NCBI RefSeq assembly: GCF_007097155.1
Contig: NZ_VJWA01000001.1
Location: 1,025,501 to 1,089,500 of the forward strand
Length of the DNA stretch: 64,000 nucleotides
Reading direction: 5' to 3'
From: Glacieibacterium frigidum
GTDB taxonomy: Bacteria > Pseudomonadota > Alphaproteobacteria > Sphingomonadales > Sphingomonadaceae
Position 1 is the stretch's first letter. Every line of letters starts with the position of its first letter. The position numbers and the translations under genes were made by a program. The notes under the pieces are model-generated. The model saw only the letters and a program-made list of their open reading frames with translations. It did not search any database and was not told the origin of the DNA. Positions 25,260 through 32,785 of this stretch are shown one piece after another.

Positions 25260-26132
25260 ATGGAGATGCATCAGATCCGCTATTTCCTGGCCGTCGCGCG
25301 GACGCTCAATTTCACGCGCGCTGCCGAAGAGTCGAACGTCACCCAGCCGTCGCTGACGCGCGCCATCCAGAAGCTGGAGGATGAGTTCGGCGGGCTGTTG
25401 TTCCGCCGCGAGCGGTCGCTGACCCACCTGACGGACATGGGCCGCCAGATGCTGCCCCACCTCGAGCGTACCTACCAGGCGGCGCAGGCGGCGAAGGACC
25501 TGGCGCGCGGCATCGGCAGGGAGGCGGTCGCGCCGCTCAACCTGGGTCTCGCGACGCCGCTGACCACGCCGCAGCTGGCGGCAGCGTTGGCCGAGGTCGG
25601 GGCGGGCCTGCCGGGGTTCCAGCTGCGCGTCGTCAGCGGGCAGGGCGACGCGCTGCTTGACGACATGCTGAAGGGCGATCTCGACATGGTGATCGCCGCC
25701 GAGCCGCGGGACCGCCACGACCGGCTCGATGCGATCCCGATGTTCGCGCTCGATTACGGTGTCGTCACGCACGAGGGGCACGCGCTGCTGGAAAAAGGCG
25801 AGGCGACGCTGGCGTGCCTGCATGGCGTCTGCTGGATCGCCGTCGGCGGCGACCTCGACGCCGAATTCCGCGAGGTGTGCGCAGCCGAGGGGGTCGAGCC
25901 CGACCATCGCCACGCGGCGGGATCCGAGGCCGATGCCCTGCGTCTCGTCGCGGCACGGCTGGGCAGTGCGCTGGCGGTACGGGCGGCGCCGTTGCCCGAA
26001 GGCGTGCACATGGTCGACGTCGCGGGCGTGCACCTGACGCGCCGCGTCGTGATCGCGACGGTTTCGGGGCGTCAGCGCCCGCCGGCGGGCGACGCGCTGA
26101 TCCGCGCGATCAGGAGTAGGGCCTGGCCGTGA
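25260..26132 (+). CDS. LysR-family transcriptional regulator
   Basis: The 290-aa product has a LysR N-terminal helix-turn-helix (FLAVARTLNFTRAAEESNVTQPSLTRAI) and a periplasmic-binding-protein-like effector domain from about 90. It ends 23 bp inside the convergent peroxiredoxin gene. It does not sit divergent to an obvious target, so the regulon is unknown; oxidative-stress control of the neighbouring peroxiredoxin is possible but unproven. Confidence 0.93.
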   Translation: MEMHQIRYFLAVARTLNFTRAAEESNVTQPSLTRAIQKLEDEFGGLLFRRERSLTHLTDMGRQMLPHLERTYQAAQAAKDLARGIGREAVAPLNLGLATPLTTPQLAAALAEVGAGLPGFQLRVVSGQGDALLDDMLKGDLDMVIAAEPRDRHDRLDAIPMFALDYGVVTHEGHALLEKGEATLACLHGVCWIAVGGDLDAEFREVCAAEGVEPDHRHAAGSEADALRLVAARLGSALAVRAAPLPEGVHMVDVAGVHLTRRVVIATVSGRQRPPAGDALIRAIRSRAWP

Positions 26133-26751
26133 CGCCCAGCGCCTCGACCACCGCGATGACCACGGCGGGATCGGCGCGGATGCGGAAGTCGGGCTCGACG
26201 AAGGCGTAGCGCACCGTGCCGTCGCCTGCGATGACGAAGGTCGCCGGGATCGGCAGCAGCCGCCCGGTGTCGCCGTAGATGTCGGCGAGGTCGAGGCCGG
26301 CGCCGCGATACGCATCGTGGACCGCCTCGCCGACGATGCTGGTCAGGCCCAGCGCGGTCGCGAGACCATGGTCGACGTCGCACAGCATCTCGGCACCGGG
26401 CGCGAGGCTGCAGCGTGTCGTCTCGGCGCGGCCGCCGATCTCGCTGCTGACCGCGATCAGCCGGCCGCCGACGGCCTCCAGCCGCGGGATGGCGGCGGCC
26501 CAGGCGGCGAGCTCGGCGCGGCAATAGGGGCACCAGCCGCCGCGGATGAAGTTGAGGACGATCGGCCCGGCGCCCAGCAGGTCGTCGAGCGCGACGTAGC
26601 GCCCCGACGAGTTGGGCAGCACGAAGGGCTCGAGCCGGTCGCCCAGTCGCGGCGCGCTGCTGCCGGTGCCGCGCGTGCGCAGCTCGGCAATGAAGCCGTC
26701 GTAGAGGCTCGCCCAGTCGGGCGCGGCGGCGGCAGGGGTCATCGTCATCAT
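26110..26751 (-). CDS. AhpC/TSA-like peroxiredoxin with CxxC site
   Basis: Thiol peroxidase of the thioredoxin fold. The 213-aa product from ATG 26751 (a second ATG follows immediately) contains the active-site motif GGWCPYCRAE with C74 and C77, then a DVDHGLATALGL stretch. The C-terminal block IPATFVIAGDGTVRYAFVEPDFR is also typical of this family. Upstream in-frame Met codons exist but precede a low-complexity Arg/Cys run not expected in this family, so the later start is preferred. Convergent with and overlapping the LysR gene by 23 bp. Confidence 0.88.
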   Translation of the reverse strand: MMTMTPAAAAPDWASLYDGFIAELRTRGTGSSAPRLGDRLEPFVLPNSSGRYVALDDLLGAGPIVLNFIRGGWCPYCRAELAAWAAAIPRLEAVGGRLIAVSSEIGGRAETTRCSLAPGAEMLCDVDHGLATALGLTSIVGEAVHDAYRGAGLDLADIYGDTGRLLPIPATFVIAGDGTVRYAFVEPDFRIRADPAVVIAVVEALGVTARPYS

Positions 26752-26903
26752 CGCCCGATAGTGCGGCCGGCGGGCGGGCGAGGGCAAGCACCCGCGCGCG
26801 CATCGGTTCCATGCCCGGCGGCAATGCTGCCGCGTGCCGTGCATCGAAAGCATAGCGCACCGGCATTTCACGCAGCCCTCCCCGACCGGCATTCAGGGTG
26901 ACA

Positions 26904-26942
26904 GGAACCCGGCGCCGTTTCCCCTGGCGGCGACCGGGTTCC
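26904..26942 (+). promoter_or_regulatory. Strong hairpin in the leader of the YHS-DoxX-DedA cluster
   Basis: Perfect 9-bp arms GGAACCCGG / CCGGGTTCC with a nested CGCCG / CGGCG stem separated by one unpaired base. It ends 8 bp before the GAAGGGA ribosome-binding site of the YHS gene. Could be an mRNA-stabilising or attenuating structure, or an operator. Confidence 0.45.
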
Positions 26943-26965
26943 ACCCAACCGAAGGGACGAACCCC

Positions 26966-27415
26966 ATGCGCCTCAAGACCCTCCTCCTGGCCGTCGCACT
27001 TGCCGTCGCGCCCGCCCCGGGCTTCGCCAAGATTGCGCCGGTCTATACCGGCACGTTCAGCAACGTCGCGGTCTCCGGATACGACCCGGTCGCCTATTTT
27101 ACCCAGAAGAAGCCGGTGAAGGGTTCGCCCAGGTTCAGCACCAGCTGGCAGGGTGCCGAATGGCACTTCGCCAATGCCGCCTACCTCGCGGCGTTCAAGG
27201 CGAACCCGACGAAGTACGCGCCGCAATACGGCGGCTACTGCGCCTGGGCGGTCAGCCAGGGCTACACCGCGTCGGGCGACCCGATGGTTTGGAAGGTCGT
27301 CAACGACCGGCTGTACCTCAACTACAACGCCGACATCGGCGCCAAATGGTCGAAGAACATCCCAGGCTTCATCGCCGCGGGCGACACCAACTGGCCCAAG
27401 CTGACCGCGAAGTAA
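26966..27415 (+). CDS. Exported YHS-domain protein
   Basis: The 149-aa product has a clear signal peptide (cleavage near APGFA, residue 22) followed by one YHS domain. YHS domains are short metal- or haem-associated folds. Recognisable pieces are GYDPVAYFTQKKPVKGSP, WHFANAAYLAAFKANPTKYAPQYGGYCAW and WSKNIPGFIAAGD. Function is unknown in general; related proteins occur widely as small periplasmic proteins. A GAAGGGA ribosome-binding site lies 8 bp before ATG 26966. First gene of a six-gene plus-strand run. Confidence 0.88.
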   Translation: MRLKTLLLAVALAVAPAPGFAKIAPVYTGTFSNVAVSGYDPVAYFTQKKPVKGSPRFSTSWQGAEWHFANAAYLAAFKANPTKYAPQYGGYCAWAVSQGYTASGDPMVWKVVNDRLYLNYNADIGAKWSKNIPGFIAAGDTNWPKLTAK

Positions 27416-27452
27416 GCGCGTCCCCCGACCCCTTTGAAGAGGAGTGACCGCG

Positions 27453-27929
27453 ATGGCCACGATCCGCAGATATCAGTTCGTTTTCATTCTCTACATCGCC
27501 TTCGTGTTCATCCAGTCGCTCTTCTTCAAGTTCACCAACTCGCCCGAGACCCAGTACATCTTCGGCACGCTCGACGTCTGGGCCGCCGGCCTGGGCTTCG
27601 GCGGGGTGTTCGCGCCGGGCGGCATCTTCTCGCAATATGTCATCGGCAGCTTCGAACTGATCGCCAGCGTCGCGCTGCTGCTCAGCCTGTTCCCGGCGCT
27701 GCGCCTGATCCGCCCCTATGCCGCGCTGCTTGCGCTCGGCGTCATCTCGGGAGCGATCTTCTTCCACCTGTTCACGCCGCTCGGCGTCGCGGTCCAGAAC
27801 ACCGACGGCACCAGCGACGGCGGCGAGCTCTTCGCCCTCGCCTGCGGGGTCTGGGTATCGGCAGCGTTCCTGGTGGCGCTCAACCGCGACCGGCTGCCGA
27901 TCGTCGGCCGCCGCGCCGCCGCCGCCTGA
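27453..27929 (+). CDS. DoxX-like small membrane protein
   Basis: The 158-aa product has four membrane helices and DoxX-style features (IAFVFIQSLFFKFTNSPETQ in the first helix, FFHLFTPLG in the third loop). DoxX/DoxD-like proteins are thiosulfate-quinone oxidoreductase subunits or uncharacterised membrane partners. The start is ATG 27453, 7-9 bp after a GAGGAG ribosome-binding site; an upstream in-frame GTG at 27444 is too close to that site. It is 37 bp after the YHS gene. Confidence 0.82.
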   Translation: MATIRRYQFVFILYIAFVFIQSLFFKFTNSPETQYIFGTLDVWAAGLGFGGVFAPGGIFSQYVIGSFELIASVALLLSLFPALRLIRPYAALLALGVISGAIFFHLFTPLGVAVQNTDGTSDGGELFALACGVWVSAAFLVALNRDRLPIVGRRAAAA

Positions 27930-27953
27930 CCCCCCGAGAACCGGAGACGCACG

Positions 27954-28526
27954 ATGGACAATTGGCTGATCGCGACCCTCGACAATGCGATGCTGTCGCC
28001 AGTGTTCCTGTTCGTCGCGCTGGTCGCTGCGACTTTCGTGCTGGAGGATGTCGCCACCGTCGCCGCCGGCATCCTGGCGGGGCGCATGTCGATTGATCCT
28101 TTCACTGCGGTCGCTGCGGTGATCGTCGGCACCATCGCCGGCGACCTCGCGCTCTATGCGGTCGGCCGCTGGCTCGGCACGTCGCGTCTCGCGACCCAGT
28201 TCCGCGCGCGCAGCGACGGTCGGCTCGAGGACCGGTTGCGCCGCCATGGCCTTATGGCCGTTGCCGTGGCGCGCTTCGTGCCGGGCACGCGCCTGCCGAT
28301 CTTCTTCGGCAGCGGGGTCGTGCGCACGCCACTCGCCAAGCTGACGCTGGTGATCGTCGGAACGACCTTGGTCTGGACGCCTGCGCTGTTCGTCGCGAGC
28401 AGCCAGGCGGGCGGCGCCCTCTTCACTAACCTGAACGCCGGCACGATCGCACTCGCTGCCGGTGTCCTTGCCGCAGTGATGCTCGCGCCCCGCCTGTTCG
28501 CGCGCCGCAGCGCCGCGCTCGCCTGA
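27954..28526 (+). CDS. DedA-family (SNARE-associated) membrane protein
   Basis: The 190-aa product belongs to the DedA/VTT group of membrane transporters, some of which flip undecaprenyl phosphate or lipids. It shows the amphipathic EDVATVAAGILAGR stretch, GTIAGDLALYAVGRWLG, and the conserved RFVPGTRLPIFFGSG loop. Membrane helices flank these. It lies 24 bp after the DoxX-like gene and 14 bp before the TPR gene. Confidence 0.9.
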   Translation: MDNWLIATLDNAMLSPVFLFVALVAATFVLEDVATVAAGILAGRMSIDPFTAVAAVIVGTIAGDLALYAVGRWLGTSRLATQFRARSDGRLEDRLRRHGLMAVAVARFVPGTRLPIFFGSGVVRTPLAKLTLVIVGTTLVWTPALFVASSQAGGALFTNLNAGTIALAAGVLAAVMLAPRLFARRSAALA

Positions 28527-28540
28527 ACCGGACCCCGACC

Positions 28541-29797
28541 ATGCTGCAACGCTCGAACGGCCTTGTCCTGACCACCGCCGATCCGCGTGACGCGGTCGCC
28601 GTCGACGCCGCGGAGGCGGCGCTGCTGCGCTACGGCAAGGACGTCGCATTGTACCTCGACAGCCCGGCCGCATCGGGTGACTGCGTTTACGGGCTGGCAC
28701 TCGCCGCGGCGTTCAACCTGATGGCGATGACCGCGCCTGCCGCGGCCCGCGCCCGGCCGCTGATCGCCGCCGCCGAGCGCCATGTGCGCGGTGCGACGCC
28801 CCACGAGCGCGCCTTCGTCGCGGCCGTCGCCGACTGGGGCCGCGGCGACCTGACCGCCGCCATTGCTCGTCACCGCCGCATCGCCGAGGCGTGGCCGACC
28901 GACCTGCTGTCGGCGAAGATTTTGCATTTCCACCAGATCAACACCGGCGACTTCGCCGGAATGCTGGCGTCGCTCGGCCCCATCGTCGCGGCGCAGCCGG
29001 GGCTGCATTATGTCCACGGCATGCGCGCCTTCGCGCTCGAACAATGCGGCGAAACTCGCGCCGCCGAGATCGCCGGCCGCCATGCCGCATCGCTGGGCAA
29101 CGATCCCTGGGCGCATCATGCCGTCGCGCATGTCCTCGATACCGAGGGCCGGGCGCGCGAGGGGCGCGACTGGATTGCAGCAACCAGCGCCGGGTGGGAG
29201 GGCTGCTCGTCGTTCATGCTGACCCACAATTGGTGGCATGCGGCGCTGTTCGAGATCACCCTCGGCGATCATGACGCCGCGCTCGACATCTTCGACACGC
29301 GCGTTTGGGGCGTGCGGCGCGACTGCTGCCAGGATCAGGTCAACGCCGTGTCGCTGCTGGCGCGGCTTGAGCTCGTCGGGCTCGACGTCGGCGACCGCTG
29401 GCACGACCTTGCGCCCCATCTAGCGGCGCGCATCGACGACCGCGCCAATCCGTTCGTCGACCTGCATTATGCCTATGGCCTGGCGCGGGCCGGGGCAGAC
29501 GAACCGCTAGGTGCGCTGTTCGCCGATCTCGCCATCAGGGCGGAGCTGCGACGGCCGCTCGATATCGCGGCGGCTACCGCGGCGCGGGCGATGACCGCGC
29601 ACGCGCGACGGCGCTATGACGAGGCGGCGGAGGCCTTCGCGACACTCGGCCCCACGATCGGGCTGGGCGGCAGCCACACGCAGCGCCAGCTGATCGACCT
29701 CTGCGCCGTCGATGCCCGCGCACGCCGCACCGACAGCGGCCGCGTCATTCATGGCGGCTGGTCGCGCCCTTACCGGCCCACCGCATGCGCCGCCTGA
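28541..29797 (+). CDS. Tetratricopeptide protein, TTC38-like
   Basis: The 418-aa cytoplasmic product is built of alpha-helical repeats rich in Ala, Trp and His. The pieces HDxAxHAVAHVLDTEGR-like (AHHAVAHVLDTEGRAREG) and HNWWHAALFEI match the uncharacterised TTC38 family found in bacteria and animals. No signal peptide or membrane segment. Role unknown; TPR proteins usually mediate protein contacts. No strong ribosome-binding site precedes the ATG, which fits translation coupling to the DedA gene 14 bp upstream. Confidence 0.8.
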   Translation: MLQRSNGLVLTTADPRDAVAVDAAEAALLRYGKDVALYLDSPAASGDCVYGLALAAAFNLMAMTAPAAARARPLIAAAERHVRGATPHERAFVAAVADWGRGDLTAAIARHRRIAEAWPTDLLSAKILHFHQINTGDFAGMLASLGPIVAAQPGLHYVHGMRAFALEQCGETRAAEIAGRHAASLGNDPWAHHAVAHVLDTEGRAREGRDWIAATSAGWEGCSSFMLTHNWWHAALFEITLGDHDAALDIFDTRVWGVRRDCCQDQVNAVSLLARLELVGLDVGDRWHDLAPHLAARIDDRANPFVDLHYAYGLARAGADEPLGALFADLAIRAELRRPLDIAAATAARAMTAHARRRYDEAAEAFATLGPTIGLGGSHTQRQLIDLCAVDARARRTDSGRVIHGGWSRPYRPTACAA

Positions 29798-29846
29798 TCA
29801 TGGGCACACGACCCGCCTACAGGATGCTCGCCAGGGAGGCCGCGCC

Positions 29847-30947
29847 ATGCTGATCGCCGAGCCCAATCGCGGCATGCCGCCGCTCGCGCCCGCGCCGGCG
29901 CTGTCGTTCTTCGAATTCTGGCCGGCGAAGCTCTTCTATCTCCCCGTCTGGGTCTGGGTGCTGTGGCTGTCGCTGCGCCATGGCGGGCTGCGCTTGCCGC
30001 TCGTCGCCAATCCGCTGTTTCCGGCGGGCGGGCTGTTCGGTGAGGTCAAGTCCGACATCCTCGATCAAATTGGGGGATCGGCGCGGCGCTGGGTGGCGCG
30101 CTACGTGAAGATCGCGCGCGGCGACGGGTTGAGCGACACGGTGGCGGAGAAGGCGATCGCGGCCGCGCGTGCCGACGGCCTCGACTTCCCGCTCGTCGCG
30201 AAGCCCGAGCTCGGCTGCCGCGGCGCGGGCGTCCGCCCGGTGCATAGTGCCGCCGACCTCGCCGCCTATGTCGCGGGCTTTCCGCACGGCGAGAGCTTCC
30301 TGCTCCAGCAGCTGATCGACGTCGAGGGCGAGGCGGGCGTGTTCTACGTGCGCGAACCCGGCGCAGAGCGCGGCGAGATCATCTCGCTGACCCTCAAGTA
30401 TTTCCCGTATGTCATCGGCGACGGCCGCCGCACGCTGGCGAAGCTGATCCGCGCCGATCCGCGCGCCGGTCGGCTGGCGCACCTCTATCTGCCGCGCCAC
30501 ACCGCGCGGCTGGGCCAGGTGCTGGGCGACGGCGAGACCTTCCGGCTGGCGTTCGCGGGCAGTCACAGCCGCGGCGCGATCTTCCGCGACGGCACACCGC
30601 TCGTCACCGAGGCGATGCGCGCGCGCTTCGACGCGATCGCGCGCGAGGTGCCCGAATTCTGGTTCGGCCGCTTCGACGTGCGCTTCGCCAACTTCGCCGA
30701 CCTGCAGCGAGGGCAGGGCTTCACCATCCTCGAATGCAACGGCGCCGGCTCGGAATCGACCCACGTCTGGGACAGCCGCACGACGTTGTTCAGTGCCTAT
30801 GCGGCGCTGTTCCGACAGTATGCATTGCTGTGGCGCATCGGCGCCGCGAACCGCAGGCGCGGCTTCCGGCCCGAAGGCTGGGGTGCCTTCCTGGCGCGCC
30901 GCCGCCGCGAGCTCGACGCGACGCCCGCTTATCCGATGACCGCGTGA
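29847..30947 (+). CDS. Membrane-anchored ATP-grasp ligase
   Basis: ATP-dependent carboxylate-amine/thiol ligase of unknown product. The 366-aa protein starts with FFEFWPAKLFYLPVWVWVLW, an amphipathic to hydrophobic N-terminus that should hold it at the membrane. An ATP-grasp fold follows. PLVAKPELGCRGAGV and ESFLLQQLIDV mark the ATP site. FGRFDVRF and ILECNGAGSE are the metal- and ATP-binding acidic segments seen in D-Ala-D-Ala-ligase-like enzymes. A clear AGGGAGG ribosome-binding site precedes ATG 29847. Its stop overlaps the GTG start of the serine hydrolase. Confidence 0.85.
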   Translation: MLIAEPNRGMPPLAPAPALSFFEFWPAKLFYLPVWVWVLWLSLRHGGLRLPLVANPLFPAGGLFGEVKSDILDQIGGSARRWVARYVKIARGDGLSDTVAEKAIAAARADGLDFPLVAKPELGCRGAGVRPVHSAADLAAYVAGFPHGESFLLQQLIDVEGEAGVFYVREPGAERGEIISLTLKYFPYVIGDGRRTLAKLIRADPRAGRLAHLYLPRHTARLGQVLGDGETFRLAFAGSHSRGAIFRDGTPLVTEAMRARFDAIAREVPEFWFGRFDVRFANFADLQRGQGFTILECNGAGSESTHVWDSRTTLFSAYAALFRQYALLWRIGAANRRRGFRPEGWGAFLARRRRELDATPAYPMTA

Positions 30948-32002
30948 CGCGCCCCGCGGGCATGACGGCCGCCAACTGGCGGGCTCATCCGTACGCGCCC
31001 TGGGCGTTCCGCAACGTCGCGGCGTTCCTGCCGGTGGCGACGGTGCCCGCCGGGCGCGCCACGCCGCTGCCGGATGGGCGGCCGCTGGACGGCGTCGACC
31101 TCGCCGGCACGCATGTGGACGGCCTGATCGTCGTGCACCGCGGCGCGGTGGTGCAAGAGACCTATGCCGAAGGAATGACGGCGGCGACGCGGCACCTGTG
31201 CTTCTCGGTCACCAAATCGCTCGTCGGGCTGCTCGCCGAGCTGCTAATCGCCGACGGCGCGATAGACCCCGCCGCGACGGCGGACACGCTGGTCCCCGAG
31301 CTGGCGGGCACGGCGTTCGGCGGCGCGACGCTGCGCGCCCTGCTCGACATGGTCGATGGCGTGCCGTTCGACGAGACCTATGCCGACGACAGCGCGCAGA
31401 TCCACCATTACTCGAAGCATTTTTGGGGCGACGGCGAGGGCGGCGTGCTCGCTGCCCTGCAGGCGCTTCCGAGTGCCGCTCCGGGCGCGGGCTTCGCCTA
31501 TCGCACCGCGGTCAGCGACGTCGTCGGGCTGATGCTCGAACGATCGACCAACCAGCCGCTCGAGGTACTGGTCGCGCGCCACATCTGGGGCCCGGCGGGC
31601 GCGGCCGACGACGCGCACTGGGTCCGTGACACCGGCGGGCGGGTGATCGCGTCGGCGGGCTTCGCGTGCACGCTGCGCGACCTCGCGCGCGTCGGGGTCT
31701 GGTTGCTGGGCCTCGGCGGACCTGCCGCTGCGTCGATCGCACGCGGCGGCGACCGCGCCGCCTTCGCCGCGTCGGGGCAGTGCACGCGGCCGGGCTATTC
31801 GTACCGCAGCCATTGGTGGATCGACCATGCGGCAGGTGCGTGGAACGCGCTCGGCGTGTTTGGCCAGCGGCTGCATGTCGTGCCCGATGCCGACCTCGTC
31901 ATCGCGCGCTTCGGCTCGCACCCGGTGGCGAGCAACGTCGGCACCGACGCCCTCCACGCCCGCGCCTTCGCCGCTGTCCGCGCTGCCCTAGAAGCGCAAT
32001 GA
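30944..32002 (+). CDS. Beta-lactamase-fold serine hydrolase
   Basis: Serine hydrolase of the class C beta-lactamase / 6-aminohexanoate-dimer hydrolase group, likely an amidase or esterase. The 352-aa product from GTG 30944 (an alternative ATG lies at 30962) has the nucleophile motif SVTK (S88, K91) and the Tyr motif region FAYRTAVSDVVG. No signal peptide is visible, so it may act in the cytoplasm. Translationally coupled (GTGA) to the ATP-grasp gene, suggesting a make-and-break pair acting on related amides; that is inference. Overlaps the convergent barrel gene by 15 bp. Confidence 0.88.
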   Translation: MTRPAGMTAANWRAHPYAPWAFRNVAAFLPVATVPAGRATPLPDGRPLDGVDLAGTHVDGLIVVHRGAVVQETYAEGMTAATRHLCFSVTKSLVGLLAELLIADGAIDPAATADTLVPELAGTAFGGATLRALLDMVDGVPFDETYADDSAQIHHYSKHFWGDGEGGVLAALQALPSAAPGAGFAYRTAVSDVVGLMLERSTNQPLEVLVARHIWGPAGAADDAHWVRDTGGRVIASAGFACTLRDLARVGVWLLGLGGPAAASIARGGDRAAFAASGQCTRPGYSYRSHWWIDHAAGAWNALGVFGQRLHVVPDADLVIARFGSHPVASNVGTDALHARAFAAVRAALEAQ

Positions 32003-32785
32003 TACCCCGACGAAGGGCGCGAAGCGGTCGGCGTCGCCGCTGACGCCGACCTGGACGCCGGTGTCGAACTGCAGGTCGTCGCGCGCCTGCCAGGTGATGC
32101 CGGTGTTGAGGCTGGTCGATGCCTGCCCGTCGCCGATCTCGGCTGCGGCCTCGAAATAGCTGCCGACCGTGTCGCTCCAGTCGACCGACAGCGAGGCGGT
32201 GGCGATGCCGAAGGCGCGGTAGCCGCGGTCTGCATCGGGCCGCCGTGCCACGACGCCGCCGTTGAGGCCGAGGCCCAGTCCGCCGCCGAAATCGAGCGCC
32301 AGCGGCACCAGCACGCCATATTCGACATCGTCGGGGCCGACGCCGCTGCCGGGGTCGAGCGGGATGCTGACGAAGGGCAGCAGCGCCAGCGCAGTCGGCC
32401 CGCCGTCGTCTCCCCAAAGGTTCAGCTTGGGCCGCAACTCGATTGCGCCGACGCCCTGCCGGCGCGGCCCCGTGCCGGGATCGAAGATGCCGTACGGTGC
32501 GATGCCGACATCGATCTCGAGCGCCGAAGTCACGCCGAAGCGGACGTTGGTCGTCGCGAACTCGTACGACCTCGGGCGGGCGCCATCCTCGCGCTTGCCC
32601 AGCGCATAGCCGAACAAGGTCGTCTCAACCTGGAAATGCCCGGGCTCGACGGTGAACGGGCTCTCGGTCGTGTCGGGACGGTCGGTGGTGAAGTCGCGCC
32701 GCGCCGGCTCGGCGGCAAAAAGCGGGGCGGCGCCGATCAGCGCCGCCCCCAGCAGGGCAATGACAGGGCGGGGGTTCGGTGCCAT
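31988..32785 (-). CDS. Outer-membrane beta-barrel protein, MetA-pathway-transporter-like
   Basis: The 265-aa product has a signal peptide ending near LFAAEPA, then a series of amphipathic strands rich in Gly and aromatic residues and a terminal Phe (FVGVSLRF), as expected for an outer-membrane barrel. The DRPDTTESPFTVEPGHFQVET start is typical of the family annotated as phenol MetA-pathway-degradation transporters. ATG 32785 is preferred; a GTG lies 9 bp upstream. It is 14 bp downstream of the unknown secreted gene and probably in its operon. Confidence 0.82.
   Translation of the reverse strand: MAPNPRPVIALLGAALIGAAPLFAAEPARRDFTTDRPDTTESPFTVEPGHFQVETTLFGYALGKREDGARPRSYEFATTNVRFGVTSALEIDVGIAPYGIFDPGTGPRRQGVGAIELRPKLNLWGDDGGPTALALLPFVSIPLDPGSGVGPDDVEYGVLVPLALDFGGGLGLGLNGGVVARRPDADRGYRAFGIATASLSVDWSDTVGSYFEAAAEIGDGQASTSLNTGITWQARDDLQFDTGVQVGVSGDADRFAPFVGVSLRF

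Follow-up and report, generated by a model that had tools for sequence, protein, structure and literature searches.

A conserved DedA and ATP-grasp ligase gene set in Glacieibacterium frigidum and its relatives, with a possible part in aminolipid modification

Introduction

ATP-grasp enzymes form an acyl phosphate that is then joined to an amine, DedA proteins move lipids, and in the ornithine-taurine lipid the taurine is attached to the carboxyl group of ornithine. Aminolipids with two headgroups, ornithine-taurine and glycine-serine, are described in the available parts of two reports (PMC12493201, PMC10191378), and a 'taurine transfer' to ornithine lipid is mentioned in the available parts of three, where no gene is named for it (PMC11001654, PMC12493201, PMC4484230). 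According to the accessible sections of PMC12493201, the GH3-type enzyme OlsH acts on ornithine in planctomycetes and provides a precedent for joining a fatty acid to an amine, and an excerpt of PMC11631085 reports acyl-histidine made via an ATP-grasp enzyme in Legionella. The Vibrio cholerae OlsF homologue, VCA0646, is the last member of a four-gene putative operon (VCA0649-VCA0646) and functions when salinity is low, as stated in the accessible part of PMC12186959. Here, we analyzed a 64,000-nucleotide stretch of Glacieibacterium frigidum DNA (contig NZ_VJWA01000001.1, positions 1,025,501 to 1,089,500 of the forward strand; hereafter, the window), in which six genes at 26966-32002 encode a YHS-domain protein, a DoxX-like protein, a DedA protein, a TPR protein, an ATP-grasp ligase and a serine hydrolase. 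A literature search that covered few subscription papers found no description of a DedA/ATP-grasp gene set, and nothing joining DedA with ornithine lipid or another aminolipid. The six-gene run is the version found in one lineage, the Sphingomonadales, of a widespread DedA-ligase set that is real, conserved and functionally coherent.

Results

The core of the gene set is the pair formed by the ATP-grasp ligase (366 amino acids; 29847-30947, + strand) and the DedA/VTT membrane protein (190 amino acids; 27954-28526, + strand). Among 115 pattern matches from named genomes of bacteria and archaea, 75 were loci encoding a ligase relative. For the neighbour counts, the window was pooled with loci from several searches, including L167-L178, which gave 106 loci with the ligase and 104 after de-duplication; 29 with short flanks were dropped, and the 75 counted here, with at least 6 kb on either side of the ligase, are mutually related rather than independent. 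DedA was found within 6 kb of the ligase in 70/75 loci and within 300 bp in 59 of these. Moreover, both proteins were fused in one open reading frame (ORF) in 9 of 99 loci, and the Azospirillum lipoferum fusion stands as a single coding sequence in the public record. Six of the eight fusion ORFs scanned scored above the VTT cut-off; the L125 fusion was under it and the L108 fusion had no Pfam match, and in both the N-terminal part was DedA-like by a purpose-built profile. The amide reaction at the membrane put forward in the preliminary description of this run is plausible, since the ligase is fused to DedA at some loci. That description had also paired the ligase with the hydrolase, which is not supported as framed, because this pair is not the core of the set: within 6 kb of the ligase, the hydrolase was present in 10/75 loci and the TPR protein in 15/75, versus 70/75 for DedA. 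The serine hydrolase and the TPR protein are lineage extras.

No Pfam match at E ≤ 0.1 was obtained with the ligase, and at most 6 of 46 relatives matched any single ATP-grasp model at E ≤ 0.01. In profile searches, it matched the cyanophycin synthetase CphA2 at 6.4e-12, and the AlphaFold2 (AF2) model (predicted local distance difference test score, pLDDT, 95.2) had CphA1 as the best fold match, with Z 16.9 and a root-mean-square deviation of 4.2-4.5 over 273-275 residues; the peptide ligases RimK and Ddl were also among its fold neighbors. The protein thus shares the ATP-grasp fold with CphA1/CphA2, but differs from them in its length, 366 amino acids versus an 862-position model, in its score of 15.6 bits versus a cut-off of 850, and in being tied to DedA. 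Membership of the cyanophycin synthetases was rejected on that score and length, and membership of RimK on 13.2 bits with TIGR00768 (cut-off 143.4) and a best E of 8.8e-4 with Pfam RimK, which was matched by 6 of the 46 relatives. The ligase has the fold and the conserved ATP- and metal-binding residues of the ATP-grasp superfamily. Since K119, E162, D277, E296 and N298 were invariant across 46 aligned sequences, the predicted ligase is probably an active enzyme.

In a sample of 398 genomes from the phylum, 14 had the ligase family (at E ≤ 1.2e-131, with 8.7e-13 for the match after these), and so did 100/249 genomes of family f15, the family of genome G428. This is probably the Acetobacteraceae, because the ligases of G428 and G455 have, apart from each other, the Lichenicoccus ligase (L103) as nearest sequence. 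In 14 of the 100 ligase-positive f15 genomes there were at least two ligase matches, one second match being partial, and these second copies suggest another type of substrate. In genome G008, of lower quality (86% complete), the ligase gene at L049 was broken across several frames, which is either a disrupted gene or a sequencing error. In the plasmid records found, ligase genes were named 'hypothetical protein', 'D-alanine--D-alanine ligase' or 'VTT domain-containing protein', or were unannotated; the name 'ATP-grasp domain-containing protein' was given once.

The window DedA protein scored 49.8 bits with Pfam VTT, above the cut-off of 33.9, and showed weak matches to the UptA-type DedA model. 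Among 92 linked DedA proteins, E31, D64 and R107 were conserved in 100% and R113 in 93%; conserved acidic and arginine residues of this kind have a functional role in the DedA/VTT family.

The neighborhood comparison, the check suggested in the preliminary description, indicated that the genes do travel together, more than by chance, and that the set is kept beyond the genus. With tblastn at 1e-4, all six proteins had matches in L031, from the same genus, and in L051, L052, L055, L057 and L100; at L057, YHS was on the opposite strand. Records L052 and L053 stand under different Sphingomonas species names; one of them may be mislabelled, since their match positions and identities coincide, and one was counted. 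Within 6 kb of the ligase, and besides DedA, the TPR protein and the serine hydrolase, the counts out of 75 were DoxX 42, YHS 32, the PF13444 N-acyltransferase 24, an alpha/beta hydrolase 21, a DinB-like protein (cluster c15) 20, M14 carboxypeptidase 16, TANGO2/NRDE 13, the OlsF N-terminal part 12 and LPLAT 6. On a FastTree tree of 99 ligases, label changes numbered 14 for the alpha/beta hydrolase, 10 for DoxX, 9 each for PF13444 and YHS, 7 each for c15 and DedA, 5 for the fused state, 4 for TPR, 3 for NRDE and 2 for the hydrolase, all inflated because the tree includes short contigs. M14 was rejected as a partner and treated as shared gene order, because it lies mostly in or near Kordiimonadales and never within 300 bp of the ligase; DUF2336 (cluster c4) was treated in the same way. 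Other layouts were also observed: in Salinivibrio, DedA, the ligase, a small hypothetical protein and NRDE with OlsF absent beside them; in Paracoccus denitrificans, the ligase, an alpha/beta hydrolase and a convergent DedA; and, on a Komagataeibacter plasmid, the ligase with DedA and the other set members absent nearby.

The informative neighbors of the ligase are aminolipid acyltransferases, which are absent beside the window operon. The 24/75 loci with a PF13444 gene within 6 kb of the ligase compare with 0.30 expected by chance, taking about one such gene per genome, or 0.45 with 1.5 genes. The corresponding neighbor cluster (c8) scored best against OlsB models, at 139.9, 144.8 and 113.4 bits, all below the cut-off of 350. 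In a panel of 118 relatives, 21 of them ligase-positive (one weakly, G088, E 1.9e-4), PF13444 was found in 21/21 ligase-positive genomes versus 64/118 overall (4e-7, uncorrected for kinship), and within the family of the window in 4/4 versus 22 of about 71 (p 0.0075). The layouts differ by lineage, with a divergent OlsB in Burkholderiales. At L168, seven genes run in one direction: DedA, the ligase, a DinB-like gene (21.0 bits, cut-off 24.8), a TANGO2-like gene, YHS, DoxX and an OlsF-like gene (435 bits, cut-off 620). This locus is probably from Vibrio, because G214 and G437, two genomes with the same genus code as L168, have ligases that show 81% and 76.5% identity with the ligase of Vibrio L194. 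Our own profiles placed the same order, with the OlsF-like gene last, in unannotated records of Vibrio sp. THAF191d (L194) and Photobacterium sp. GJ3 (L193). In Mariprofundus (L113), an OlsF-like gene (404.9 bits, cut-off 620) lies upstream of a DedA-ligase fusion, and at L110 the order is c15, TANGO2, the fusion, an OlsB-like gene and a PlsC-type acyltransferase. In these relatives, OlsB- or OlsF-like genes, which score under the curated cut-offs, are in or beside the run, a likeness to the OlsBA and OlsF systems; the differences are that the run has YHS, DoxX, DedA and an ATP-grasp ligase in addition, and that in the window genome it is unlinked to such genes. Separately, the DinB-like and TANGO2/NRDE pair adjoins the ligase in distant bacteria (L168, 10250-11544; L110, 6070-7402; L189, 9165-10480), TANGO2 being a family whose name comes from an animal protein.

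In the window, all six ORFs on the + strand were open, and the spacing of 37, 24, 14, 49 and -4 bp given earlier was verified. The run starts with the YHS-domain protein (149 amino acids; 26966-27415, + strand), followed by the DoxX/MauE-like membrane protein (27453-27929, + strand), with an ATG start and an in-frame GTG ahead of it at 27444. After DedA come the TPR protein (418 amino acids; 28541-29797, + strand) and a 49-bp gap (29798-29846), where relatives such as L031 and L051 carry the alpha/beta hydrolase gene. The ligase is then followed by the beta-lactamase-fold serine hydrolase (30944-32002, + strand), which has a GTG start. Relocation of the alpha/beta hydrolase within the window genome was rejected, as elsewhere in that genome only distant matches with 27-33% identity were detected. 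A scan of 26700-32200 for promoters and terminators gave no excess over shuffled sequence: one terminator-like match was found, at 29886-29901 within the ATP-grasp gene (shuffle mean 2.1), and no sigma-70-like promoter match (shuffles 0.4). Directly upstream of the operon are a LysR-type regulator (25260-26132, + strand) and a peroxiredoxin-like gene (26110-26892, - strand); the clusters of these proteins, c21 and c24, were seen in 8 and 7 loci, respectively, and in several cases adjoin the operon in relatives.

Regarding the accessory proteins, YHS scored 161.5 bits with NCBIfam YHS_seleno_dom (cut-off 70) and 28.7, slightly below the cut-off of 30.3, with Pfam YHS, and C92 was retained in 32/32 linked relatives. 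Its presence profile was discarded as a test: it was found in 37/118 genomes, with many paralogues, and in 17/21 ligase-positive ones. The DoxX-like protein showed a weak match to Pfam DoxX_2 (16.7 bits, cut-off 26.3, E 0.008), and one relative matched MauE weakly. K29, E71 and H108 were 100% conserved in 48 linked relatives, and this DoxX type and the ligase had 18/19 genomes in common, including G008 and G075, where their genes are not adjacent; together, this suggests a distinct subfamily of DoxX-like proteins. The TPR protein had no Pfam match at E ≤ 0.1; its own profile matched TPR proteins at 1.7e-8, and its AF2 model (pLDDT 88.6) was all-helical, with Foldseek matches to TPR proteins (best E 1.1e-4), in line with a TPR helical repeat fold. 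As a link, its presence profile was rejected, the ligase being absent from 5 of the 10 TPR-positive genomes among the 118, and relatives of the TPR protein without the ligase were observed in G012, G018 and G058 (L180-L182), from the family of the window. The serine hydrolase scored 90.4 bits with Pfam Beta-lactamase (cut-off 27), and S88 and K91 of the SxxK motif were conserved in 9 linked relatives. Its best-scoring solved relatives were 6-aminohexanoate-dimer hydrolases (NylB; 1.2e-33, residues 8-328); the genomic setting of NylB is unlike that of the window hydrolase, whose function is a prediction.

Discussion

Of the readings considered, the one involving aminolipids has the best support, with a substrate that we infer. 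We tentatively favor, at somewhat less than an even chance, a system for aminolipid modification, of which the run would be the version in Sphingomonadales and in which the ligase would add a second amide to a lipid headgroup. An N-acyltransferase, which may be of the OlsB type or an OlsF-like synthase that also contains an O-acyltransferase part, would first make a lipid carrying an amino acid, for instance ornithine lipid; the sole PF13444 gene of the window genome lies away from the operon. At the inner membrane, the ATP-grasp enzyme would use ATP to convert a carboxyl group to its phosphate and then join it to an amine. The second headgroup amide formed in this way could, for example, link the ornithine carboxyl to taurine or to an amino acid; such a second amide is the simplest step to propose for a ligase encoded beside an enzyme that attaches amino acids to lipids. 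DedA may present the lipid to the ligase or move the product across the membrane, and YHS, DoxX, TPR and the hydrolases would be accessory parts. Beneath this scheme lie the gene order, its recurrence, the fusion, the conserved active-site residues and the linkage to OlsB- and OlsF-like genes in relatives. Cerilipin, the ornithine-taurine lipid of Gluconobacter cerinus, requires a second amide such as we propose here, and the probable Acetobacteraceae often carry the ligase (100/249); Gluconobacter was not recognized among the genomes sampled, in which no search by name was made, and no enzyme is named for the ornithine-taurine step in the accessible portions of the literature examined. In planctomycetes, an ATP-dependent amide ligase and an alpha/beta hydrolase, OlsH and OlsI, also lead to an aminolipid; according to the available sections, OlsH differs in being an adenylate-forming GH3 enzyme rather than an ATP-grasp one, and has no adjoining OlsB or OlsF (PMC12493201).

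Several observations weigh against this scheme. The main weakness is that the aminolipid link is borne by relatives rather than by the window, because the single PF13444 gene of the window genome (C1:256061; ORF L187:7933-8775) lies some 0.8 Mb away from the operon and no alpha/beta hydrolase precedes the ligase as it does in relatives; the window operon itself contains no OlsB or OlsF gene. The test on 118 genomes was uncorrected for relatedness, and within the family of the window the p value was 0.0075. In f15, PF13444 is near-universal (237/249 genomes; 97/100 ligase-positive, 140/149 ligase-negative), so its profile is uninformative there, and at two f15 loci, L169 and L178, DedA alone stands beside the ligase. 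The Komagataeibacter and Celeribacter loci have no DedA, the OlsB- and OlsF-like proteins all fall below the curated cut-offs, and the nearest PF13444 gene is on the opposite strand in 9 of the 24 linked loci. Finally, PF13444 is lacking within 6 kb at 51 of the 75 loci. DedA-ligase pairs at such loci, the peptide ligases RimK and Ddl among the fold neighbors and the weak UptA-type matches would also suit a ligase and a DedA whose substrate is some other envelope component, for instance a precursor of the cell wall, a lipid carrier or a protein tail, with OlsB or OlsF nearby through a shared envelope stress response. We consider this unlikely, as linkage to OlsB and OlsF occurs in several layouts and lineages, far beyond expectation.

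The ATP-grasp enzyme could instead act on free fatty acids, coupling them to amines or amino acids and giving a second N-acyl amino acid beside the OlsB or OlsF product. Acyl-histidine in Legionella and OlsH are precedents, and an alpha/beta hydrolase lies near the ligase in 21/75 loci, OlsI being such a hydrolase too, as far as the accessible parts of these papers go (PMC11631085, PMC12493201). However, N-acylation is already supplied by OlsB- or OlsF-like genes at the linked loci and the nearest fold uses amino-acid or peptide acids, which makes this proposal rather improbable. A loose collection of envelope-stress genes with no common reaction would account for the variation of accessory genes among lineages and for the LysR and peroxiredoxin genes that recur beside the operon, but it agrees poorly with the existence of DedA-ligase fusions and with a DoxX type that shares 18/19 genomes with the ligase even when not adjacent; we give it little credence. 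Very improbable, lastly, is the cycle of the preliminary description, in which one amide is formed by the ligase and cleaved again by the SxxK hydrolase: the -4 bp overlap behind the proposed coupling does recur in L051, L057, L069 and L072, and amide cleavage stands insofar as the solved proteins that score best with the hydrolase are amide-splitting enzymes (1.2e-33), but the hydrolase is no part of the core pair, and one of its 10 occurrences within 6 kb, at L083, is about 6 kb from the ligase on the opposite strand.

Under the aminolipid reading, the ligase is a candidate for the 'taurine transfer' to ornithine lipid. It is also conceivable, if doubtful, that the ATP-grasp enzyme and DedA, one protein in some bacteria, are a widespread inner-membrane enzyme for making and exporting two-headgroup aminolipids and related amide-extended lipids, the missing taurine-transfer step of cerilipin included, and that this DedA has a lipid-modifying enzyme built in. 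Bacteria commonly contain aminolipids, and the available parts of the literature examined name no enzyme for the second amide. The ligase-DedA fusion offers a handle on the cargo of such DedA proteins, and a single assay could correct many ligase annotations. The gene set may make a new or long-unexplained bacterial lipid.

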